Shown here: piece after piece, positions 1,261 through 51,679 of the stretch
How positions within the stretch are numbered: the stretch's first letter is position 1
Layout: the number at the start of each line of letters is the position of its first letter
Assembly (NCBI GenBank): GCA_028688275.1
Contig: JAQTYN010000004.1
Location: 1-64,000, forward strand
Direction: 5' to 3'
From: Gallionella sp.
GTDB taxonomy: Bacteria; Pseudomonadota; Gammaproteobacteria; Burkholderiales; Gallionellaceae
DNA length: 64,000 bases
Program-made: the position numbers and the translations under genes
Notes under the pieces: model-generated
The model's input: only the letters and a program-made list of their open reading frames with translations
Database searches by the model: none
Told to the model about the DNA's origin: nothing

Positions 1261-1362
1261 TCACCTCACACTTAACTGTGACGAGTTGATCTGAGCAAAT
1301 AAATTAGCGTCAATGCTGAGATCGGCAACTTTTGAGGCGGCGGCAAAACCTAAGTCACTCAT
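1261..1362 (-). CDS. 33-codon micro-ORF with strong RBS directly upstream of hamA
   Basis: On the minus strand an ATG at 1362 follows GGAGG (1369-1373) with six bases between, a near-ideal ribosome binding site. The frame reads MSDLGFAAASKVADLSIDAN and on for 33 residues to a TGA at 1261-1263, five bases before the hamA ATG. The end of this ORF contains the hamA ribosome binding site, so translation of the two could be coupled. The hamA frame has a TGA just upstream of its own ATG, so this is not simply a missed N-terminus. I do not recognise the peptide. It could be a leader peptide, a small regulator or a remnant of a lost gene. Confidence 0.4.
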   Translation of the reverse strand: MSDLGFAAASKVADLSIDANLFAQINSSQLSVR

Positions 1363-1446
1363 CACATTCCTCCGAAAAATAAGCGTAAATTATATTCGCA
1401 TTTGCGGTACTCACGATGAGTTTTGCGTACCGCTCACCGAGGAGAT

Positions 1447-3078
1447 TTACCCCAACTGCTGCCCATGTTCCCTCGTAGCGAAGAATTGGACTTTGGGCCA
1501 GCGTTCTTGCGCCAAGCGCAAATTCACGCCTGTGTCCGCTAAATACGCGTAGTTGCCATCCACATCTTTGGCGAGGCGTGCGCTATTGGCTTTGACGAAT
1601 TCGTTGAGGTGGTTCGTGTCGGCACAGGTGACCCAGCGTGCGGTATGAATCCCCGCGCGTTCAAACACCGCATCCACGCCGTATTCGGCTTTGAGGCGAT
1701 GTTCCACCACTTCAAATTGCAATTGTCCGACCGCGCCGATCAGCAAGGCGTTATCGACCAGCGGCGCGAACACTTGCACCGCGCCTTCTTCGCCCAATTG
1801 ACGCAAGCCCTTTTCTAATTGCTTGGCTTTCATCGGGTCGCGTAAACGGGCGCGGCTGAACAGTTCGGGTGCGAAGTAAGGAATGCCTTTGAAAGTCAGC
1901 AATTCGCCTTCAGTCAACACGTCGCCAATTTGCAATTGTCCGTGGTTGTGGATGCCAATGATGTCGCCTGCAAAGGCTTCGTCCAAGCGCGAACGTTCGT
2001 TCGCCATAAACGTCACCGCATTCGCCAGCTTCATATCTTTACCCGTGCGGCGATGTTTGACCTTCATGCCAGAGGTATATTGCCCCGAACACACGCGCAA
2101 AAAGGCGATGCGGTCGCGGTGGTTGGGGTCCATATTGGCTTGAATTTTAAACACAAATCCCGTGAAGGCAGGTTCGGTGGGTTCAACCATGCGCACATCG
2201 GTGGCACGCGGCAACGGGGCGGGAGCCCAATCGACCAAGGCGCGCAGCACTTCGCGCACGCCAAAGTTGTTCACGCCTGAACCAAAAAACACGGGTGATT
2301 GTTGTCCCGCCAAAAACTGTTCTAAATCAAACGATGCGCCCGCGCCCATGACCAACTCGGTTTCTTCACGCATGGTTTTCATTTCGCTGGGGCATTGCTG
2401 CGCCAATTGCTCAATTTCTGCGCCGCGCAAGGTTTCCACCTCTTGTCCCGCCTTGGCTTCGCCAGGTAAAAAACGCAGCACTTCATCGTTCAATAAGTGA
2501 TACACGCCTTGGAAACGCTTGCCCATGCCAATTGGCCATGTGACGGGGGCGCAATGGATTTTGAGGACGGATTCGATTTCGTCCAGCACTTCCAATGGTT
2601 CGCGCACTTCGCGGTCGAGTTTGTTGATAAAGGTGATGATGGGCGTGTTGCGCAAACGGCACACTTCCAGCAATTTGATGGTTTGTTCTTCCACGCCCTT
2701 TGCCGCATCCACCACCATCACCGCAGCATCTACGGCAGTCAACACGCGATAAGTATCTTCCGAAAAATCTTGGTGACCTGGGGTGTCCAGCAGGTTGATG
2801 ACGCAATCGTCATAAGTGAACTGCATGACCGAGGAAGCCACGGAAATGCCGCGCTGCTTTTCGATTTCCAACCAGTCGGAGGTGGCATGGCGACCACTTT
2901 TGCGCGCCTTCACTGTTCCCGCCATCTGAATCGCGCCGCCGAACAGCAGCAACTTCTCGGTCAAGGTGGTTTTACCCGCATCGGGGTGAGAAATAATCGC
3001 AAAGGTACGGCGACGTTTCACCTCACGCACCACGCCATCTGTGTGGGTGATTGTGGTTTGTTCTAAAATTTCACTCAT
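1447..3078 (-). CDS. prfC: Peptide chain release factor 3 (RF3 GTPase)
   Basis: RF3 is a translational GTPase that recycles RF1 and RF2 from the ribosome after peptide release. The protein shows the classic G motifs: P-loop [16 protein letters not shown] near residue 30, [14 protein letters not shown] as G3, and NKLDRE as G4, followed by the RF3-type C-terminal domains. The start is placed at the ATG at 3078 (MSEILEQ), giving 543 residues. A frame extension to a TTG at 3099 is less likely. No operon partner is evident; the Hachiman-type genes downstream on the same strand are separated by 85 bases. Highly conserved family, confident call. Confidence 0.95.
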
Positions 3079-3657
3079 TTTTGTCTCTAAATCAGGCAAT
3101 TAAACGCACAGCAGCCCTGTGCAAAGGGGGCGAATACTACCAGAAATGGGGGCGTACTGATATTGCCTTAGCGCAAGAGCTGTCGGTAGTCGATAAGTTA
3201 AACCGCCGACCTCGAAAAGTTCTAGGTTGCAAAGAAAACTACGTAGTATTTTTTTGCGTGGGAATTTGCTACACCTTGCAATAAGCGAATGGTTGTACTT
3301 GATACTTGCATGTGCGAGATTAAATCTACATTTCCTTTGATATTGTAGAAAATGGATTCGCCTTGCGTAGTGTCTACTGTAAAAAATCAAGTAATGACGT
3401 GGGTTGAGGATAAATTAAGGCGTTTGTACGCGTGGGTTCGTGCCGATTTTTGTTGGTAATGTGTAGATGAAAGTAATGATGAACAGTCAGCCCGCGATCA
3501 TTGCCTACTTTGATAAAGCTAGGCTATGTCGCGGCGGTACTTTACACGTATCTGAGTGGCTGAAGCTGTAAACGGCTGCGCGAGTTGTGGGACTAAACAC
3601 CTACTCAATCAACGATTCGTTTTAATCGTGTCTTTACTTATTGCGCGAGGTGATGAC
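3079..3657. other. Non-coding gap between ssuA1 and prfC
   Basis: About 580 bases without a convincing gene. It must contain the prfC promoter, since prfC is transcribed leftward from here, but I could not pick one with confidence. The stretch around 3550-3575 (GGCTGAAGCTG) faintly resembles the sequence downstream of ssuA3 near 9010-9025, which may be a remnant of the duplication that produced the binding-protein paralogs. Confidence 0.4.
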
Positions 3658-4632
3658 TTATTTAATAACTGCTTTTGCTAAGCTTGGGTCAATTAAGTCG
3701 TCGATTACTTTATTCAAATCGGTTTCAGATTTCACCAAACCTTCAGCCAATAACAAAGGGGCTGCCGCACGCAAGGCACTTTGATGTTCTTTGCCAATGC
3801 GTGGGTTGGATAAATCGGTGCGCTCAAGTTGTAATTGCGCTGAGTTCAGCGGTACATTGGACTCTTCGGATTGTAATTTGGCGGCTTCAGCAGGATGGGC
3901 AATGATCCATTTGCGTGCTTTTTCATAAGCCTTGATGACGCTACGAACATGTTGCGGATACTGCTTGGCAAATTGTTCGTTGACACACAGGAATCCCGTG
4001 CTAATAAAATTGATATTGCGATATAGCAACTTTGAACCCATTTGCAATTGGCTGTCTGCCATATGCGGATCCAGTCCCATCCACGCATCCACCCGCCCTT
4101 GTTCCATTGCAATTCGCCCTTCTGCATGGGGAATATTTACAATTTCTACTTCAGATCTTTTTACGCCAAATTGGCGCAAACTTTGCAATAAGAAGAAATA
4201 AGCATCCGTGCCTTTCGTGACGGCAATTTTTTTACCTCGCAAATCTTGCACCCGCTGAATCGTGCTATTTTTACTCACGACCAAAGCGACCCACTCAGGA
4301 CGTGAAAACACATAAATGGCTTTAATAGCATGCCCCTCGGAACGCGAAACCAATGCTGAAAGCCCAGCTGCACTCCCAAAATTTGAACTGCCACTGCTCA
4401 AATAGTCCAATGCTCGATTGCTGCCCGCGCTGAACATCCACGCCACGCGAATACCCGAAGATTTAAATTCTTCTTCTAACCAGCCAAAGTGCTTTAATAC
4501 TAAACTGCTGGGGGAATAATAAGCATAGTCCAGACGTATTTCTCGTGGCTCTGCTGCCAGTGCGGGGGCTGCAATCCATATCGTGGCAAGCCATAAAATC
4601 CATTGTGATTTGAGTAAGTTAAAGCGTTTCAT
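3658..4632 (-). CDS. SsuA-like periplasmic sulfonate-binding protein, paralog 1
   Basis: A 324-residue ABC transporter substrate-binding protein of the SsuA/TauA/NrtA type (NMT1-like fold). It has a signal peptide ending near PALAAEP, a conserved YYSPSSLVLK stretch in the mature N-terminus, and DLRGKKIAVTKGTDAYF in the ligand-binding core. It is a close paralog of the proteins at 7562-8548 and 9132-10100, sharing many long identical stretches. It lies downstream of the flavin monooxygenase gene, separated by about 160 bases, so it may be co-transcribed or separately controlled. Substrate is inferred as an organosulfur compound; nitrate, taurine or another anion cannot be excluded. Confidence 0.8.
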   Translation of the reverse strand: MKRFNLLKSQWILWLATIWIAAPALAAEPREIRLDYAYYSPSSLVLKHFGWLEEEFKSSGIRVAWMFSAGSNRALDYLSSGSSNFGSAAGLSALVSRSEGHAIKAIYVFSRPEWVALVVSKNSTIQRVQDLRGKKIAVTKGTDAYFFLLQSLRQFGVKRSEVEIVNIPHAEGRIAMEQGRVDAWMGLDPHMADSQLQMGSKLLYRNINFISTGFLCVNEQFAKQYPQHVRSVIKAYEKARKWIIAHPAEAAKLQSEESNVPLNSAQLQLERTDLSNPRIGKEHQSALRAAAPLLLAEGLVKSETDLNKVIDDLIDPSLAKAVIK

Positions 4633-4795
4633 GTGCTGCTTTCTTTATTGAGGTTAAAAATGTCAGAAACTTTTTTTGACCGTGGATATGACAGATTTGT
4701 ACTGTTATGCGTGAATAAGGCTTTTTTCGCCCTATCGGGCGATGCACGAATTTGTCGTACCCACATTAAATAGTCATGCCACCCGAATTTGAGGT

Positions 4796-5959
4796 TTACG
4801 AATACGAAGTAGGCGTGGGGTAAACATCGTTTAACGCCCAGTTGCCAAGGTCACGTAGTTTGTAGTCCAGTGGGTCGTGCAAGGTGTGTGTACGGGCGTT
4901 GCGCCAAAAACGATCCAGCCCTAATTTTGAGTGGGTTGCGCCTGCACCCGCCACATCAAACAATTGCGAGCTGATGTCCAAGCTGGCGCGATGTGCCAGT
5001 ATTTTGGCTTCCACCATGGCGACCGCCACTTCACCGCGTGCTTCGTCCGTGAGTGCGTCTTGTTTCAGCCAAGCGGCATCCAATTTGTCGGCTGCGAGGT
5101 CAGCAAATACCGTTGCGGTACGCAACTGCAACCAAAGATCGGCAAAGCGTTGTAATAAATAAGGGTCTTGTGCGGCACTGCTGACCCCAGAATTGACCCA
5201 AGGGCGGCGTCGCGTGCGGGTGAAGTGACGGGCTTCATGGTACGCGCCTTGCGCTAACCCTAGATAAATGTTGATTAAAATGGATTGTGCCAAGCAGGCG
5301 CGCAGATTGGCGAACGGGCTGCCATTCGGACCAGGATTGAGCAGTAGATTATCATGTTCAATCAAGACATCGCTAAAACGCACCGTGCCGCTGTCGGTTT
5401 GGCGTTGTCCGATGGCATCCCAATCGGTGTCGATTTGCACCCCCTGCCGATTGGCAGGAATCGCGCCGACCACAAATTTGCCATTGGATTCGAGGTGCGC
5501 CGAAACCAATAGACTATCCGCCCCGCGTGCGCCAGAGCAAAAACTCTTCAGTCCATTGACTAAAATGCCTGCCTCCACTTCGACCGCTCGACTGCGATTG
5601 TCCGCAGGGTTGAGCGCGTTGCCCCAAAACCAACGCTGTTGCACGGTTTGAGTCAGCAATTCTGCTTGCTGTTGTTCACTGCCGAAAAACATAATCGTGG
5701 CGACTTGTAGATGCTGGAAAGCAAATAAATGCGCCATTGAACTATCGACTTCAGCGACGCGACGCACCACGTTTAAAGTGGTGTGCCAGTTCTGTCCCAA
5801 ACCGCCAAAGCGCGTAGGAATGGCAAGGGTGAGTAAACCACTGTCACGGATCAATTCGCGTTCATGTGTGGCATGCCCCCCTGTTTTGTCACGAGCAACT
5901 GCATTTTCGGCAAGTTGTTCGCATAAGTGTGTGACGTGTGCTTCGATGTTGAAACTCAT
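4796..5959 (-). CDS. Acyl-CoA-dehydrogenase-fold monooxygenase, SfnB/DszC-like
   Basis: This protein of about 387 residues has the acyl-CoA dehydrogenase fold. In sulfur-scavenging clusters such proteins (SfnB, DszC) are flavin-dependent monooxygenases that oxidise sulfones or other organosulfur compounds. Conserved stretches include IPTRFGGLGQNWH near the N-terminus and a C-terminal four-helix region. The start is set at the ATG at 5959 (MSFNIEAH), preceded by AGGAG; a longer frame to 6052 would overlap ssuB and is rejected. It begins 16 bases after the ssuB stop, so it is part of the transporter operon. The context supports a role in organosulfur use; the precise substrate is unknown. Confidence 0.75.
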   Translation of the reverse strand: MSFNIEAHVTHLCEQLAENAVARDKTGGHATHERELIRDSGLLTLAIPTRFGGLGQNWHTTLNVVRRVAEVDSSMAHLFAFQHLQVATIMFFGSEQQQAELLTQTVQQRWFWGNALNPADNRSRAVEVEAGILVNGLKSFCSGARGADSLLVSAHLESNGKFVVGAIPANRQGVQIDTDWDAIGQRQTDSGTVRFSDVLIEHDNLLLNPGPNGSPFANLRACLAQSILINIYLGLAQGAYHEARHFTRTRRRPWVNSGVSSAAQDPYLLQRFADLWLQLRTATVFADLAADKLDAAWLKQDALTDEARGEVAVAMVEAKILAHRASLDISSQLFDVAGAGATHSKLGLDRFWRNARTHTLHDPLDYKLRDLGNWALNDVYPTPTSYS

Positions 5960-17607: not shown

Positions 17608-17630
17608 GGAGTTTGCAATTAAATCCGTTC

Positions 17631-35836: not shown

Positions 35837-36169
35837 TTACTTTGTCGCTGGGTTGTCTTCTTCGATTTTAGCCAAACTGTCGCCTTCAAAAATTAAAGTC
35901 AACCGATGTTGCTCGACCAATTTTTCTTCCTGAATCAAACGATAAATGTAATCCCAGCGGTTTTGATGAAACACATCATTCAACAAAGGCGTGCCGAGCA
36001 CATAGCGAATTTGTTGGCGGGTCATGCCAATTTTGATTTTTTCACGCATTTCAGGGCTGACATGGTTTCCCTGACGGATGTCCATTTTGTACGGGGAAAG
36101 ATGGGGGACGCTGGGTAGGTAGCTACAGGCAGTCAACAACAGGGGAGCGATAAGCAGGGAAATGCGCAT
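35837..36169 (-). CDS. bamE: Outer membrane assembly lipoprotein BamE (SmpA)
   Basis: About 110 residues from the ATG at 36169. The lipobox is LLLTAC, giving an outer-membrane lipoprotein. The SmpA/OmlA domain shows KIGMTRQQIRYVLGTPLL and RWDYIYRL. BamE stabilises the BamABCD complex; bamB is also in this window but not linked. It shares orientation with recN upstream, about 45 bases away. Confidence 0.93.
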   Translation of the reverse strand: MRISLLIAPLLLTACSYLPSVPHLSPYKMDIRQGNHVSPEMREKIKIGMTRQQIRYVLGTPLLNDVFHQNRWDYIYRLIQEEKLVEQHRLTLIFEGDSLAKIEEDNPATK

Positions 36170-36214
36170 AATGGTTCTCTTTATTCGGTAAATAGTAAGC
36201 CGCCGCATGATACC

Positions 36215-37876
36215 TCAAGCCGCCATGCTCAACATCTCTGCTGCGTGTTGGCGAGTGGTATCGGTGATGGTCGCACCACCCAACATGCGGGCGATTTCTT
36301 CAACGCGTTGTGGGGCGGTAAGCGGAGTAATGTGGCTAAAGGTTTGATTAGATTCGACAGATTTGCTGACTTGCCATTGCTGATCTGCCATCGCCGCGAC
36401 TTGGGGGAGATGTGTGACACACAGCACTTGGTAATGTTTACCCAGTTGTTTCAAGCGTTGCCCGACGATTTCCGCCACGCGCCCGCCAATGCCGCTATCG
36501 ACTTCGTCAAAAATCAAGGTCGGCACGCTGGCGATTTGGCTGGTGGCAACTTGAATTGCCAAACTGATACGGGATAATTCGCCGCCTGAGGCGACTTTTG
36601 CCAGACTGCGCGGTGGAATGCCAGGGTTAGCGGCAACTTGTAATTCTACGGTTTCCAAACCATGGGCGTTGCCTGCCTCCAGCGGTAATAGTGCGACCTG
36701 AAAGCGTCCGCCCTGCATGGCAAGGGTTTGCATCGTAGCCGTGATGTCGTCAGACAATACGACGGCGGTGGCTTGACGTTGCTGGCTCAGGGCGCGGGCG
36801 GCGGTTAAATAGTCTTGTTGCGCTGCCTGTTCTTGTGCTGCCAACAGCGTTAAATCGCCATCGCTGCCCAATTCCGCCAAACGTGCCGTCACGCGTTGCA
36901 ATACTTCGCCGAGTTGCACGGGGGCGACACGATATTTGCGGGCGGTGTCGATCACGCTTTCAATACGTTGGGCTTGTTCGTGTAGCTGTTGTGGGTCGGT
37001 TTCTAGGCGTTGTTGATAAGTACGTAAGGCGTACACCGCTTCTTGCAGCTCGGTTTGCGCGCTGTCCAAAAGCTGCAAAATATCGCCCAGTCTGGCATCG
37101 TGCGCCACGTGTTCGCGCATACGACTGGACAGAGCACTCAGTTGTGCCAAGCACGAGGCATCCGCCTCGCTCAATGTTTCCAAACCAAATTCGGCGGTTT
37201 CTTGCAAGCTGACGGCGTGTGACAAGCGGGTGTAATCGTTTTGCAGGGTTTCCCAACTGGTCACATCAAACGCTAGCTCCTGTAATTCGCGTTGCTGAAA
37301 TTGCAATAATTCCCGCTCGGCCGTGACGGCGGCGGCGTTTTCAGTCAGCAACAGACGACGGCGTTGTAATACCTGCCAAGTTTGGTACAACTGGGCAAGT
37401 TGCGCGGCATCGGCTTGCAAGCCTGCATAACCGTCTAATAACTGCCGCTGTGCGTCGGGGCGCAACAGCGACTGATGGGCGTGTTGACCGTGTATATCCA
37501 ACAAGTATTCACCTGCCTCGCGCAATTGTTGCAAGGTGGCACTGCGCCCATTGATAAAACTGCGTGAGCGACCCTTGGCATCAATCACACGGCGCATCAT
37601 GCAAACATCTTCTTCGCCATCAAGCTCCTGTTCACGCAGCCAGAGTTGCAATTCGCCTAACTTGGCAATATCAAATTCGGCGGTGATTTCGGCACGTTCA
37701 CAGCCTGTGCGCACCATATTGCTATCGCCGCGCTCGCCCAATGCCAGTGACAATGCGTCGATCAAGATAGATTTACCCGCACCCGTTTCGCCTGTCAGTG
37801 CGGTAAAACCTGTAGCAAAATCCAGCTCTAGGCTAGAAACAATCACAAAATCGCGTAGCGTCAGAAAGGTCAGCAT
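36215..37876 (-). CDS. recN: DNA repair protein RecN
   Basis: An SMC-like ATPase in double-strand break repair. 553 residues: N-terminal Walker A GETGAGKSILIDALSLALG, long coiled coils (about 150-370), and C-terminal signature VASGGELSRISLAIQ and Walker B TLIFDEVDSGIGG. Length is normal. nadK lies 3 bases upstream, the typical nadK-recN pair. An SOS box was not identified. Confidence 0.97.
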   Translation of the reverse strand: MLTFLTLRDFVIVSSLELDFATGFTALTGETGAGKSILIDALSLALGERGDSNMVRTGCERAEITAEFDIAKLGELQLWLREQELDGEEDVCMMRRVIDAKGRSRSFINGRSATLQQLREAGEYLLDIHGQHAHQSLLRPDAQRQLLDGYAGLQADAAQLAQLYQTWQVLQRRRLLLTENAAAVTAERELLQFQQRELQELAFDVTSWETLQNDYTRLSHAVSLQETAEFGLETLSEADASCLAQLSALSSRMREHVAHDARLGDILQLLDSAQTELQEAVYALRTYQQRLETDPQQLHEQAQRIESVIDTARKYRVAPVQLGEVLQRVTARLAELGSDGDLTLLAAQEQAAQQDYLTAARALSQQRQATAVVLSDDITATMQTLAMQGGRFQVALLPLEAGNAHGLETVELQVAANPGIPPRSLAKVASGGELSRISLAIQVATSQIASVPTLIFDEVDSGIGGRVAEIVGQRLKQLGKHYQVLCVTHLPQVAAMADQQWQVSKSVESNQTFSHITPLTAPQRVEEIARMLGGATITDTTRQHAAEMLSMAA

Positions 37877-46036: not shown

Positions 46037-46100
46037 GGTTTAAGTCCTTAAAATAAATAACGAGCCTACAGGTTAAACATAGCAAATACTGATTTTATCT

Positions 46101-46177
46101 TCCGTTCGTGGTGAGCTCGTCGAACCATAGCGGAAGATCAACAAAACTTACCCTTCGACAAGCTCAGGGCGAACGGA
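46101..46177. repeat. REP-like palindrome (GTTCG...CGAAC family)
   Basis: TCCGTTCGTGGTGAGCTCGT (46101) and the inverted CCTTCGACAAGCTCAGGGCG with AACGGA (46152-46177) form the arms. Lies in the 302-base gap between the aminotransferase and the FGE-domain gene; no other feature is seen in that gap. Confidence 0.8.
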
Positions 46178-46338
46178 TTTGCTCAGTGTGTCCCTACGCA
46201 AACGGGCACGCACTGTATCAAGAAAAGCCCACCTTGGCATCTGCAACCTGCTCGAATAGGCAAGGCGAATTTAAACATAAATAGTGGGCGCGCGCAGCTT
46301 ATTCACCCCACGCCGTTTTGGCGTGCAACCACAAACCT

Positions 46339-47640
46339 TTAGCGATGATCTTCACACTTTTCCTGCTTAATGACTTTGTTGGATGGTGAAGAGGGGATCG
46401 TTCTCGCCAGGCGAAAGCCGACAGGATTGCTGCGGTCAGCGAAATGGTAAGTCGTTTCTCCACAATTCGGACTGGGTTCACCTGAATCTAGCGAGCCGCC
46501 ACACGAAATATCGTTGTTACCTTCTTCACTCACTTGCGGATTCTTGTCCTGAACCAACTCATCCGCATTGCCGTTCATGTCGTAAAGTCCCCACGCATTG
46601 GGTAATTTCATGCCGACGGGGTGGGTAAATTCTAAATCAGAATTTTCGCTACTCCATGCCACGGCAAAAACGTCATCCCCCCCACAATAGGCGGTCGCCT
46701 TTCCTGCAAAGCAGGCGTATGTCCATTCGACCTGAGTTGGCAAACGATAATGCTTGCCTGTTTTAGCATTCAGCCTTCGGATAAATTCTTCCACTTTGGC
46801 AGCGTCTCCTACAGTTGCAGCACACAAATCACACTCACCTGCCCGACGTTCCCCCCCCATGACCGCACGCCATTGTTGACTCGTCACCTCATATTTTCCG
46901 ATTTGGAATGCGGGTAATAGGGGGGTGCAGTCATCATCGACAACCACTCCCGCTGGCACATCCACCATATCAGGGCGGGTAGGCGAAACAAGGGGAAGCG
47001 GCAGTGATACCTCTTGTGCTAAAAACGCGAAGCGTTCAGATAACACCCTCGCTTTATAGTTAGCATCTCGCGTGATTAAAAAAACCAGTTCGGTTAATTG
47101 ATCGACGCTCATTTTGGACAAGCGGGCATACCAACCATTTTTGGACGACGAAGCGATATGCGGATTACGCTTAATCTCCCGCTTTAGCCACATAAACAGC
47201 GATTCCTGCTGTTTATGCGCAAAAACATCTCTGATAAACCAAGATGTTGGCTCCATCCTAGAATGTAGATTGGGAATAGTGGTTTCAAAAATTTTGCTTT
47301 GCGCCTCATTCCCCCGCGCCGTTGACTGTTTTGTCGCCCCCTTTTTTCGCTTGACGGGGGCTTTCGCGGGTTGAGTTTGAAAGGCAACCCGTTGGATATT
47401 TTGGGCTTTAACGTCCATTTCGACCATCCAAGCCGTGTCGGCTTCGATTTTGACCTCACCGCGTGCTTGCCACGCCCACGCCGCCGTAATGATAACGCCC
47501 ACCAAAAACCACAACCGCTGACCTTGCACGCGATTAAGTGCTGCTTGGTGGCGAGCTTCCGCCTCGGCGAGGCGTTGCGCATCGGGGGAAGCGCATAAAG
47601 GGGTGCGGTCGAAAATGTTCATCTCGTTTAAATCGTTCAT
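46339..47640 (-). CDS. Membrane protein with FGE-sulfatase (SUMF1) domain
   Basis: About 433 residues from the ATG at 47640, which has GGAGG upstream. A cytoplasmic N-terminus precedes one membrane segment (LWFLVGVIITAAWAW, about residues 45-60). The C-terminal half (from about 220) is the FGE-sulfatase/SUMF1 fold: IGKYEVTSQQWRAVMGG, HYRLPTQVEWTYAC, GLYDMNGNADELVQD and the GFRLART end. The usual GGSW segment appears as CGGSLDSGEPS, so it is a diverged member, probably not formylglycine-forming but ligand- or protein-binding. It lies downstream of the HNH/TPR-ATPase pair on the same strand, 129 bases apart. Function unknown. Confidence 0.8.
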   Translation of the reverse strand: MNDLNEMNIFDRTPLCASPDAQRLAEAEARHQAALNRVQGQRLWFLVGVIITAAWAWQARGEVKIEADTAWMVEMDVKAQNIQRVAFQTQPAKAPVKRKKGATKQSTARGNEAQSKIFETTIPNLHSRMEPTSWFIRDVFAHKQQESLFMWLKREIKRNPHIASSSKNGWYARLSKMSVDQLTELVFLITRDANYKARVLSERFAFLAQEVSLPLPLVSPTRPDMVDVPAGVVVDDDCTPLLPAFQIGKYEVTSQQWRAVMGGERRAGECDLCAATVGDAAKVEEFIRRLNAKTGKHYRLPTQVEWTYACFAGKATAYCGGDDVFAVAWSSENSDLEFTHPVGMKLPNAWGLYDMNGNADELVQDKNPQVSEEGNNDISCGGSLDSGEPSPNCGETTYHFADRSNPVGFRLARTIPSSPSNKVIKQEKCEDHR

Positions 47641-47685
47641 GTTATGCCTCCATTGGGGTGAATTACCAATACATTGAGCAAGGTA

Positions 47686-47749
47686 TGATGTGCCGACAGG
47701 CGCATCAATCTCGTTTAAATTCAAAAAGATGCGCCTGTCGGCACATCCT
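47686..47749. repeat. Inverted repeat between HNH and FGE genes
   Basis: GATGTGCCGACAGGCGCATC (47687-47706) is mirrored by GATGCGCCTGTCGGCACATC (47729-47748) with a 22-base loop. It could cap the HNH transcript or be a palindromic element; the FGE gene start lies 46 bases beyond it. Confidence 0.8.
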
Positions 47750-47769
47750 ACGCACTGGTGATAAGAAAC

Positions 47770-48507
47770 CTAAATCTTTCCGCCATGGGGAAGTTTGTCT
47801 GGATTGGATGCAGGGGATATAGGTAGCGTTGTCACAGGGTCAAAGCACCCACTTGCACGAGTCCCCTCAAACGCATCAATTAACCGATTTCGCATGTTTG
47901 GGTTATCGTGAAACACTGTCATCCAAATACTAAAAAACCCTCTAGCGGCAGCCAATTTAGTTGTAACGTCTTGGGCTAGAAGATTACTAGGGTCTGAATC
48001 TAAATCATTCTTTGCATCCTGCGCTTCAGACCAGACCTCTAACCGCTGGGCAACACGATCTAAGGCCACCGCTTTGCCATTCTCATCGAAAATCTTAGAA
48101 ACTGATTTATCCAACCCTGTTAGCGACAAAGTATGGTGAGCGAACATTTCCAAGCCTGCTTTTCTCGCGGCGGCAGAAGGAGTTACCCGTCCATCCAACG
48201 TGTATTCAAACGCAATAAAAGTGTTGTCTCTGTCAGGGAGCAATACATCAGAAAAGACCACATCTTTGTCTTTTTTAGTTGAGTTGCAATTTACACAAGC
48301 AAGCAGATAGTTATTCCAAGAGCCTTCCAAGTGCGCATAGGCTGGCAAGCCTTTTGGTTGAATATGTTCTACAGCAAGTTGAGTAGCAATGTAGCGTTCG
48401 CAGTAACTACAGTAATGCCCAAGCCGAGAAACCAAAAAAAGCTTTGCATCTTCGTAATTATGAAAATCAGCAGGTTGTGGTGAGTTTCCTCGAAACACGG
48501 GACGCAT
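47770..48507 (-). CDS. HNH endonuclease, PtuB-like (Septu-type)
   Basis: 245 residues from the ATG at 48507; GGGGGAG lies six bases upstream, and a GTG at 48510 is the alternative. The HNH site has paired cysteines CSYC (33-36), EHIQPKGL with His48, NNYLLACVNCN (65-75) with CVNC, and the final NST. This C-x2-C / H / C-x2-C pattern with WNNYLLAC is characteristic of HNH nucleases paired with AAA ATPases in Septu and retron-associated PtuAB modules. The TPR-ATPase stop lies two to three bases before it, so translation is coupled. No signal peptide. The likely role is the effector nuclease of the pair. Confidence 0.85.
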   Translation of the reverse strand: MRPVFRGNSPQPADFHNYEDAKLFLVSRLGHYCSYCERYIATQLAVEHIQPKGLPAYAHLEGSWNNYLLACVNCNSTKKDKDVVFSDVLLPDRDNTFIAFEYTLDGRVTPSAAARKAGLEMFAHHTLSLTGLDKSVSKIFDENGKAVALDRVAQRLEVWSEAQDAKNDLDSDPSNLLAQDVTTKLAAARGFFSIWMTVFHDNPNMRNRLIDAFEGTRASGCFDPVTTLPISPASNPDKLPHGGKI

Positions 48508-48510
48508 CAC

Positions 48511-51483
48511 TCACTCCCCCAATTTAACGATGCGTTTCCGTTCCAAAAATGCTTGGAATGCTGGATTGCTTGCATAAGGACCGATTCCTTGGGCAAGTTG
48601 TTCTTTATATCCAGCAAGTTTCTCAGCGGGAGACATCGCCGCCTCGTCCAGCGTTTCCAAATAGCGTTTCGCTGCACCTTTCATTGTTTCGTAGCGTAAA
48701 CTAACTTGAGGATTTGGAATACCCATAATTCCTTGTGCAATCTGCTCAACCGATATATTGGCTAATTCAGCCGTAGGTTGTCCGTCCAGCATAATTAACT
48801 CCTCGCCAGAACGCAGCGACTGAATCAAAAAAGGCGAATGCGTGGTGCAAATAAACTGTACTTTCGGAAATGTCTTCCGCAGGTTTTCAATAATGCCGCG
48901 TTGCCATTTGGGGTGTAGATGCAAATCCAGTTCGTCGATCAGCACAATGCCTGACGTTTCCGCGCAGACTTTTTCGCCCAAGTGGGGATTCATAATAACG
49001 GCGCGGCGGGTTAAGTCGCAGAACAGCCCGATGATGGTACGCTGTCCGTCGCTGAGATGTTCAAGTGGAATCGTCTTGCCATCGTCAAAATCCAACACGA
49101 TGCCGCTCCGATCAAAGTCATACCGAATGGCGGTGCAATTCTCAATCGCGGCTTTGACCGCAACTTGAAAAAGCTGAATTTTAGACTTGGCTCGCTCTGA
49201 ACCTTTTGCCGCCATGTCTTCTTTAAACACCCAAGTTGCCACCTCGATTAAATCCGCGCCCGTATGAAAACAATCTATATAGGGATCAAAACGTGAATAA
49301 CGCTTGGTTGCCGCTGCTTCAGGATCGAATTTTTTAGTCGTTTTCCACAAGCGGTCACATTCATAGAACGCAATCAGCGGTAAATCAAACGATTGCCCTT
49401 GTTCGATATAGTGCAGCACATCCGTCCCTAATCGCGCAAAGTCAATGTTTTGTTTGATGCCACTGTCATACACAATCTGACCTTTGGCAAAGGTATGCTC
49501 ACCCGTGTCTTGGCGTGTACGCGTCCAACTTGCTGTGGCGTTTTCGGCTTGTTGTTGATAATCAACAATTTTGGTCGTGCCTTGTACCCCAATTTGAGTA
49601 AAGCGACTTTTGGTAAACCGCCCTGCTTCTTGCACCTCCCGAATTTCATCGTCTTCAATCGGGCGTAAATTTTGGTCGTCTTTGATATAGGCGTGCGCCC
49701 AACCGCCCAACGCGACCGCCAAGGCACGCAGCAAAGTGGTTTTGCCTTTGCCGTTTTCGCCCACCACCAAGTTAAATTCAGGGTGAAAGTGAAAGGTCGA
49801 TGCTTCAAAACATTTGAAATTGGTGACTTTAAGCTGTTCGATTTTTAGCACCGCAATTCGTCGAGAACCATTTGAATGATCTCTAACCAGTTGGGTTGTG
49901 CGATGATCTTTGCCTAAGGTCTTCTCAAGAATGGTCAAACTGCGCTGAAATAAAGGCGCGGCGGCGGCATAGTTGCCTTGGGCTTGATAAAGCACGGCTA
50001 AATTATTCAAACTCGAGGCAAAATCGGGATGCTCTTTCCCTAAGGTTTTTTCCCGAATCTCTAAGCTACGTTGGTACAAAGGTTCAGCCGCCGCGTAGTT
50101 GCCTTGGGTTTGATAAAGCCCTGCCAAATTATTCAAATTCATGGCAACATCTGGATGCTCTTTGCCGAAGGTTTTTTCCAGAATCACCAAACCACGTTGA
50201 TACAAAGGTTCAGCCGCCGCGTAGTTACCTTGGGTTTGATAGAGTGCGGCTAAATTATTCAAACTCGTGGCAACATCGGGATGTTCTTTTCCCAATGTTT
50301 TTTCCCGAATCACCAAGCTACGTTGATACAAAGGTTCAGCGGCTGCGTAATTGCCTTGGTTTTGATAAATCCCCGCCAAGTTATTCAAGCTTTGAGCAAC
50401 ATCAGGATGCTCTTCTCCCAAGGTCTTTTCGCGAATGGTTAAGCTGCGTTGGAGCAAAGGTTCAGCGGCTACAAAATTCCCTTGGGTTTGGTATAGCACG
50501 GCTAAATTATTCAAGTTACTGGCAACATTGGGATGGTCATTTCCCAAAATTTTCTCGAACATCACCAAGCTACGTTGCAACAAAGGTTCAGCCGCAGCAT
50601 AGTTACCTTGATCTTGATAAAGCAGAGCTAAATTATTCAAACTTTGAGCAACATCGGGATGGTCATTCCCCAAGGTTTTTTCGCGTATGATTAAGCTGCG
50701 TTGATACAAAGGCTCGGCTTTGGTGTAGTTGCCTTGTGCTTTATAAAGCACAGCTAAGTTATTCAAGCTTTGAGCAACATATGGATGGTCTTTGCCCCAG
50801 ACAGCTTCCCGAATACTTAAGCTGCGTTGGTATAAAGGTTCGGCTTTGGTGTAGTTGCCTTGTGCTTTATAAAGCGCGCCTAAATTATTCAGACTTTGGG
50901 CAACATCGGGATGGTCTTTGCCCAAAGTGCTTTCCCAAATCGCCAAACTACGTTGATACAAAGGCTCAGCAGCAGCATAGTTACCTTGGGCTTTATAAAG
51001 CGCGGCTAAGTTATTCAAACTTTGAGCAACATCGGGATGGTCTTTGCCCAAAGTGCTTTCCCGAATCGCCAAACTACGTTGATACAAAGATTCAGCCTCT
51101 GCGTAGTTACCTTGCTCAAAATGACGCATCCCTAACTGATTTAAGTATTGCGCCAAATCAGGATGATCTGCCCCTAAGGTCTGCTCCATCATGGTCAAAC
51201 GCGCTTGTATTTCGGCTTCGCCCTGTTGCGCGAGGGAAAGTGCTTGATTGACGATGTTTTTTGATTCACTGGCGGACAACAACCGTTGCAGGGCGCGTTC
51301 CATCACCGCTTTTGCGGCAATGGCATCTTTTTCTTTGGCTTGTTTGAGAAGTTGTTCGGCGCGGATAAATTCGGCTTGGGCAAAAGCGGTGTGGGCTTGT
51401 TCCAGCAGTGCAATAGCTTCAGGGTCTTCGGGTTTGAACTGAGCAAGATTTCGGTGAAAATTACTTTGTGCTTCGGGTGTCAT
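48511..51483 (-). CDS. TPR-PtuA fusion: kinesin-light-chain TPRs plus Septu-like ABC ATPase
   Basis: 990 residues. An N-terminal helical region (1-106) is followed by ten tandem 42-residue TPRs (about 107-526), each starting HPDVAQSLNNLAALY and containing QGNYAAAEPLYQRSL. A PtuA-like ATPase follows (about 543-990): Walker A GENGKGKTT (575-583), signature LSDGQR (810-815), Walker B IVLIDELD (846-853), and the switch His in CTTHSPF (about 882). In Septu, PtuA assembles with PtuB (HNH) to degrade nucleic acid. TPR fusion to PtuA is unusual; TPRs commonly serve as sensors or scaffolds. Cytoplasmic. Family assignment by motif; immune function inferred. Confidence 0.82.
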   Translation of the reverse strand: MTPEAQSNFHRNLAQFKPEDPEAIALLEQAHTAFAQAEFIRAEQLLKQAKEKDAIAAKAVMERALQRLLSASESKNIVNQALSLAQQGEAEIQARLTMMEQTLGADHPDLAQYLNQLGMRHFEQGNYAEAESLYQRSLAIRESTLGKDHPDVAQSLNNLAALYKAQGNYAAAEPLYQRSLAIWESTLGKDHPDVAQSLNNLGALYKAQGNYTKAEPLYQRSLSIREAVWGKDHPYVAQSLNNLAVLYKAQGNYTKAEPLYQRSLIIREKTLGNDHPDVAQSLNNLALLYQDQGNYAAAEPLLQRSLVMFEKILGNDHPNVASNLNNLAVLYQTQGNFVAAEPLLQRSLTIREKTLGEEHPDVAQSLNNLAGIYQNQGNYAAAEPLYQRSLVIREKTLGKEHPDVATSLNNLAALYQTQGNYAAAEPLYQRGLVILEKTFGKEHPDVAMNLNNLAGLYQTQGNYAAAEPLYQRSLEIREKTLGKEHPDFASSLNNLAVLYQAQGNYAAAAPLFQRSLTILEKTLGKDHRTTQLVRDHSNGSRRIAVLKIEQLKVTNFKCFEASTFHFHPEFNLVVGENGKGKTTLLRALAVALGGWAHAYIKDDQNLRPIEDDEIREVQEAGRFTKSRFTQIGVQGTTKIVDYQQQAENATASWTRTRQDTGEHTFAKGQIVYDSGIKQNIDFARLGTDVLHYIEQGQSFDLPLIAFYECDRLWKTTKKFDPEAAATKRYSRFDPYIDCFHTGADLIEVATWVFKEDMAAKGSERAKSKIQLFQVAVKAAIENCTAIRYDFDRSGIVLDFDDGKTIPLEHLSDGQRTIIGLFCDLTRRAVIMNPHLGEKVCAETSGIVLIDELDLHLHPKWQRGIIENLRKTFPKVQFICTTHSPFLIQSLRSGEELIMLDGQPTAELANISVEQIAQGIMGIPNPQVSLRYETMKGAAKRYLETLDEAAMSPAEKLAGYKEQLAQGIGPYASNPAFQAFLERKRIVKLGE
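49906..51165 (-). repeat. Ten tandem 126-base repeats encoding TPRs
   Basis: Each unit encodes a 42-residue kinesin-light-chain TPR. Units 2-4 and 7-9 are especially similar at the DNA level. It is coding, not a CRISPR array: units are in frame and have no unique spacers. Near-identical units would allow copy number change by recombination. Confidence 0.9.
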
Positions 51484-51530
51484 ACCATTCCTTCCGTTCC
51501 AACATGATGCGGCTGATTACTAAGGAGATG

Positions 51531-51647
51531 CTGATTAAATCCGTTCGCCCTGAGCTTGTCGAAGGGTGAATGGATTTAATTAATTGATTTAATTAAATTT
51601 TCAGTTAATGGTTCGACAGGCTCACCACGAACGGAAAATTTAATCAG
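51531..51647. repeat. REP-like palindrome upstream of the TPR-ATPase
   Basis: CTGATTAAATCCGTTCGCCC with TGTCGAAGG (51531-51565) and an inverted partner, GGTTCGACAGGCTCACCACG and ACGGAAAATTTAATCAG (51610-51647). It lies in the gap ahead of the TPR-ATPase start, so promoter elements may overlap it. Confidence 0.82.
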
Positions 51648-51679
51648 TGTCTCCCTACCTTACCTTTTGTTGCGACAAA

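Follow-up and report, generated by a model that had tools for sequence, protein, structure and literature searches.

A Septu type I cassette from Gallionella sp. with tetratricopeptide repeats fused to PtuA, a candidate sensor-gated variant

Septu type I systems are recognised by a PtuA ATPase with Walker A, signature and Walker B motifs, a PtuB HNH nuclease with paired CxxC motifs and the adjacency of the two genes. In the available excerpts of a study on Septu cutting tRNA-Tyr, the Walker residues of PtuA and the HNH residues of PtuB are both required (PMC13096335), and excerpts of a second study place a reverse transcriptase beside ptuAB in retron type I-A, or Septu type II (PMC8565338). 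The trigger of stand-alone Septu appears unsettled in the excerpts at hand, and a PtuA with a dedicated, possibly swappable sensing arm would make it directly testable. Here, we analysed a stretch of 64,000 nucleotides from Gallionella sp. (GCA_028688275.1, contig JAQTYN010000004.1, positions 1-64,000 of the forward strand; hereafter the window, which lies on contig C92 of its genome G000) and describe a ptuA gene fused to an array of tetratricopeptide repeats (TPRs) and followed by ptuB. Based on sequence and predicted structures, we suggest with a probability of roughly 60% that this cassette is a Septu type I variant in which the TPR solenoid gates PtuAB by sensing a protein made by the phage or the host.

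The TPR-PtuA and PtuB proteins

An initial annotation of the window had described a 990-residue gene joining ten 42-residue TPRs to an ABC ATPase with complete motifs, directly coupled to a 245-residue HNH nuclease, and had read the pair as a variant of Septu. Open reading frame, repeats and motifs were all found as described (Table 1), and the reading as Septu is backed by sequence and predicted fold alike. Residues 546-987 matched a PtuA profile with an E-value of 4.1e-124 and the HNH protein matched the PtuB profile PDLC00315 with 5.4e-76 (both PADLOC); like the repeat scores, these values are far beyond chance. Both reading frames are open. The ptuB frame (47770-48510, minus strand) encodes 246 residues from a GTG or 245 from the ATG that opens a conserved MRP motif; the TGA stop of ptuA is followed by the GTG and then by this ATG, which lies 3 nt past the stop. 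Four residues of the ATPase signature (L810, S811, D812, G813) and D850 and E851 of Walker B are invariant among 13 aligned sequences. In PtuB, the paired CxxC motifs are CSYC (34-37) and CVNC (72-75, numbered from the GTG), and C34, C37, H49, C72 and N76 are invariant among 16 aligned proteins. Structure predictions, made on single chains, matched both partners to solved PtuA and PtuB of Septu and retron systems, with PtuB resembling the folds 9n69 and 8eea. Membership of the cassette in Septu type I is thus strongly supported by its sequence and its predicted models.

The N-terminal half of the fusion protein (residues 1-541) is helical in the predicted model, with a pLDDT of 43-67 up to residue 90. 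The ten repeats follow each other at an exact spacing of 42 residues, starting at residues 104 to 482, and match Pfam TPR_10 in 10 stretches (E-value 8.9e-154); their predicted fold resembles the TPR domains of KLC1, LGN and APPBP2. The protein has a single P-loop pattern (at residue 575), and no STAND NTPase was recognised among 25 of 32 matched Pfam families listed. We also considered whether the front of the protein is shared with other effectors of the family, which was not supported, as a query with residues 1-105 was confined to the two genomes carrying the fusion plus one weak match (E-value 5e-4) among 158 family genomes.

A second fusion genome and the wider distribution

The second of these genomes, Gallionella sp. 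STB_49, belongs by kinship to the genus of the window and carries the TPR-PtuA fusion at the same site. It entered our surveys under three labels (L007, G460 and L031) and is one genome, which leaves this very fusion known from two genomes and not three. The initial annotation had allowed for separate TPR and ATPase genes joined by an assembly error; an artefact of this kind can be rejected, since the ortholog is fused as well in a separate genome. The two proteins are 91% identical over residues 1-145 and 88.5% identical in the ATPase core, where dN/dS is 0.14 (0.02-0.15 for the flanking genes). Past the motif THSPFLIQSLR, identity drops at once, to 35% in the PtuA tail and 40% in the first part of PtuB. 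This sharp border looks recombination-like, and tail and PtuB differ as a unit, suggesting that they can vary together while the putative sensor end stays. The PtuB of the window is 57-62% identical to the PtuB of six TPR-less loci (L030, L032, L065, L067, L070, L071), which is above its identity to the PtuB of STB_49. In a test of covariation with PtuB across 21 loci, partial rank correlations were 0.63 (tail) and 0.46 (core), values reached by 0 and 1 of 999 permutations, respectively. For this set, 18 of 38 loci with both matches were dropped (duplicate, fused, short or without the motif pattern) and L093 was included manually; an earlier run on 14 loci (tail 0.74, core 0.11) was not used because its strict pattern lost many loci and one locus had entered twice. 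A role of the PtuA tail as docking module for PtuB is modestly favoured by these data.

In the repeat array, STB_49 has eight repeats, of which 3 and 7 are identical in DNA and 2 and 6 are 97% identical, pointing to a recent block duplication. Repeat number and inner repeats thus vary between the two genomes, with the ends of the array kept. Position 12 of the repeat is Asn in all 18 repeats of both genomes, and positions 16, 19 and 36 each show six residue types. Asn ladders of kinesin light chain and OGT contact peptide backbones.

How widespread is this design? With the ATPase as query, matches were obtained in 2 of 399 genomes of the order at 1e-60 and in 8 of 158 family genomes at 1e-20 (own genome included in both counts), TPR fusions in the family being those of the window and STB_49. 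Profile searches for PtuA, confined to the class and phylum of the window, yielded 19 places in 369 class genomes and 78 in 398 phylum genomes, 95 of them distinct. We retrieved the 11 non-window places with an open frame of at least 560 residues, plus one of 542; frames below 560 residues can hardly hold more than PtuA, and TPRs were looked for in them only if the sequence of the locus was retrieved. Fusions were recognised at 4 of the 95 places, namely the window, L098 (891 residues), L093 (1006) and L094 (1210), and in the latter three a PtuB gene adjoins the fusion. The best PADLOC profiles of the four all differ (PDLC00278, PDLC00271, PDLC00281, PDLC00269). At the start of L094 lies a STAND NTPase domain (PF25199; 36.2 bits against a cut-off of 34), and the front halves of L093 and L094 are related (39% over 597 residues). 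In L094, the protein of STAND NTPase, TPRs and PtuA ATPase spans positions 1281-4913, with its PtuB gene downstream and a HEPN-domain gene shortly before it (359-787). Profile PDLC00269 matched 29 of 48 genomes of the class of L094, and among the matches listed only L094 had a frame above 631 residues, a count that may be low given that L093, from the same class, was not recovered by this profile at its fusion place. A scan of genome contigs gave 22 loci, one of them recognised as TPR-fused (STB_49). No separate TPR gene was recognised beside unfused PtuA in L007-L030 and L029-L100 by a profile of the window's repeats, which may miss other kinds of TPR, and many of these loci came with only about 1.5 kb of flank.

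Several other loci were noted along the way. Two loci from Sphaerotilus, L012 and L018, encode close PtuA relatives (52% and 67% over short stretches) that are truncated within PtuA by the end of the contig, their fronts being unseen; a gene of about 240 residues lies downstream in both. L025 encodes a 718-residue protein (2692-4848) with PtuB-like and PtuA-like stretches, followed by a second PtuB-like gene. The genome of the window harbours a second, distant PtuA-like place on contig C88 (about 35896-36690; 552-residue frame, one stop within the matched stretch), by length possibly of retron I-A type.

Insertion site and neighbouring genes

For the flanks, the arnT-like protein was compared with 25 relatives including the own genome; 17 matched, 16 of them other genomes. 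After arnT, 14 of the 16 have an emrE-like and a degT-like gene, with gaps of 4-288 bp between alignment ends; the two exceptions are L119, without emrE match and with degT directly after arnT, and L111, with other genes in place of degT. In the window, the gap between emrE and degT measures 5.6 kb and is filled by TPR-ptuA, ptuB and an FGE-domain gene, and we therefore regard the cassette as an insertion.

The FGE gene (Pfam FGE-sulfatase, E-value 2.1e-17) encodes one hydrophobic stretch near its N-terminus, and its likelier start is the ATG at 47640. In STB_49, degT (98% identical) and the FGE ortholog share a contig different from that of the fusion; upstream of the FGE gene, this contig terminates in an IS110-family fragment. 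The ptuB frame of STB_49 is cut off by the end of its contig after 178 codons, and the two contig ends probably face each other. A diversity-generating retroelement acting on the FGE gene was considered and rejected, as the own genome holds no near-identical template (one 65% match, query 1-195) and STB_49 has no RVT_1 match.

REPIN-like palindrome pairs (46102-46176 and 51541-51634), inverted relative to each other, lie just within the two ends of the insertion, with 0 expected by chance, and further single copies occur at 17625 and 21232. A role as mover was not supported: the degT-side pair is common to STB_49, the emrE-side pair is absent from it. Among plasmid records, three had a PtuA relative at an E-value of at most 1e-25 (best identity 30%), and with the full-length query the 20 records listed of 92 matched over the TPR part. 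Two scans of viral contigs gave no relative, and PHROGs gave matches only to families without PtuA naming. Elsewhere in the window (36215-37876), a 553-residue SMC/RecN-like ATPase is encoded, with a PADLOC match to MAD3 of the MADS defence set (E-value 1.5e-31); its location, flanked by bamE and an NAD kinase gene, nevertheless suggests RecN.

Table 1 Features of the TPR-ptuA locus in the window
Feature	Position	Strand	Basis or remark
TPR-ptuA fusion gene, 990 residues	48511..51483	-	Open reading frame, Pfam, PADLOC, predicted model
N-terminal helical region, residues 1-103	51175..51483	-	Predicted model
Ten 42-residue kinesin-light-chain-type TPRs, residues 104-523	49915..51174	-	TPR_10, repeat spacing, model
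PtuA ABC-type ATPase, residues 546-990	48514..49848	-	PADLOC
Walker A GENGKGKT, residues 575-582	49738..49761	-	Motif scan
Signature LSDGQ, residues 810-814	49042..49056	-	Motif scan
Walker B IVLIDE, residues 846-851	48931..48948	-	Motif scan
PtuA C-terminal tail, residues 892-990; differs with PtuB between the two fusion genomes	48514..48810	-	
ptuB, HNH nuclease, 245 residues from ATG	47770..48507	-	PADLOC PDLC00315, PtuB folds
FGE/SUMF1-domain gene	46339..47724	-	Pfam FGE-sulfatase; membership in system unproven
Insertion with TPR-ptuA, ptuB and FGE gene, between emrE-like and degT-like genes	46037..51679	.	Flank comparison

Proposed mechanism and relation to known systems

What could a TPR array add to PtuA? 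We propose that TPR-PtuA of resting cells is bound to PtuB and ATP in an assembly like that of known PtuAB complexes, in which the nuclease is kept inactive. Upon infection, the solenoid would use its concave groove to bind a phage-made protein or peptide, or a host one altered by the phage; this binding would shift the PtuA assembly and release PtuB, which would then cleave DNA or tRNA. Phage production would stop, and the infected cell would probably be lost. The TPRs would then play the part of RT-msDNA (RT, reverse transcriptase) in retron I-A PtuAB or of the repeat domains in STAND receptors, setting what is sensed, with PtuAB as output. Sensing through the repeats gains likelihood from the repeat turnover in the array and from the STAND-TPR-PtuA relative L094. 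Several points weigh against this proposal. Septu does not need the TPRs, as 91 of the 95 PtuA places showed no recognisable fusion, and the very fusion described here is known from only two genomes, in one of which PtuB may be damaged, given that it leaves the contig end and that an IS110-type fragment ends the contig of the next gene. The four TPR-PtuA fusions may have had separate origins. With a pTM of 0.59, the fusion model does not fix how its two halves are placed relative to each other. Turnover is a common feature of tandem repeats and by itself no proof of a sensor, and TPRs also act as scaffolds or localisers.

This last property leads to a different explanation, in which the array drives or stabilises higher-order PtuAB assembly, or anchors PtuAB at a structure of the cell, the trigger being that of ordinary Septu. 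It would fit the generic nature of TPRs as interaction modules, the many PtuA without them and the otherwise ordinary ATPase and PtuB of the window. We nevertheless consider it unlikely: two near relatives differ in the number of repeats and in the inner ones, with the ends kept, and PtuA proteins of several profile families have TPRs, in one case behind a STAND NTPase. An idle fusion, with TPRs captured by chance in one lineage and a cassette that no longer defends, would fit its rarity (2 of 158 family genomes) and the possibly interrupted PtuB of STB_49; it is very improbable in view of the intact catalytic motifs and open frames of the window, the dN/dS of the ATPase core, the retention of the fusion in two genomes and the same architecture elsewhere.

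The third gene of the insertion could also belong to the system. In such a three-gene arrangement, the TPRs would bind the FGE/SUMF1-domain protein, which would serve as receptor, perhaps anchored in the membrane by its hydrophobic stretch, and PtuAB would again be the output. The gene lies within the insertion, its position beside degT at the contig end of STB_49 fits the same insertion, and the ortholog shows 81% amino acid identity and a dN/dS of 0.30, compared with 0.02 for the degT flank; moreover, FGE/C-type-lectin folds are proposed as antigen sensors in conflict systems in the available excerpts of one paper (PMC10907252). Against this stand the frequency of FGE-domain relatives in the genus (41 of 76 genomes at 1e-10, own included), the distance of about 130 bp between ptuB and the likely FGE start together with the IS110-type fragment just upstream of the gene in STB_49, the failure to recognise an FGE gene among four neighbouring genes searched beside L093, L094 and L098, and the lack of any sign of a diversity-generating retroelement, so that we regard a receptor role of this protein as quite doubtful.

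Returning to sensing by the TPRs, we tentatively extend it, at somewhat less than even odds, to PtuAB as a general output module repeatedly set behind NLR-like arms. Examples would be TPR-PtuA in the window and L098, as well as L093 and L094, where two different types of PtuA have a STAND-tail/TPR front in common and L094 also has the STAND NTPase. Sensor and PtuA/PtuB halves would be exchanged as modules, yielding a receptor-gated Septu whose TPR array evolves by repeat turnover like a recognition surface. TPR-PtuA also ties SMC-like ATPase-nuclease defence to NLR-style architecture.

The annotation's remark that no TPR-PtuA fusion had been described agrees with our full-text literature searches, in which no paper on such a fusion was found in the collection covered and two near matches were accidents of wording. 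Pairs of this kind can be expected to be filed as plain Septu, because the matched PADLOC profiles cover the ATPase part only. Compared with Septu type I of E. coli (8ee4, 8eea, 8sux), whose solved PtuA aligns with the window protein from residue 546 on, the latter has an extra 540 or so N-terminal residues comprising the helical region and the TPRs. Unlike retron type I-A (Ec78/Eco7, Ec83), the window contig has no reverse transcriptase, and the TPRs stand in place of the RT-msDNA control partner; a retron was rejected, as the RVT_1 matches of the own genome are confined to contigs C39 and C15. PADLOC families PDLC00288 and PDLC00292 likewise describe PtuA extended at the N-terminus by several hundred residues, but by a part that matches PtuB HNH proteins. 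The kinesin light chain TPR domain (6swu, 7ai4, 6fuz) shares the 42-residue type of repeat, with 41-48% identity in the structural alignment, but belongs to a eukaryotic cargo adaptor without fused ATPase. With Avs and other STAND (NLR-like) receptors, the window protein has in common a repeat solenoid joined to an NTP-driven output, as L094 does with a STAND NTPase before TPRs and PtuA; it differs in that no STAND domain was seen in it and that its repeats precede the ATPase instead of following it. We regard the TPR-fused PtuA as a variant within Septu type I, the recurrence of the design being the more interesting part.
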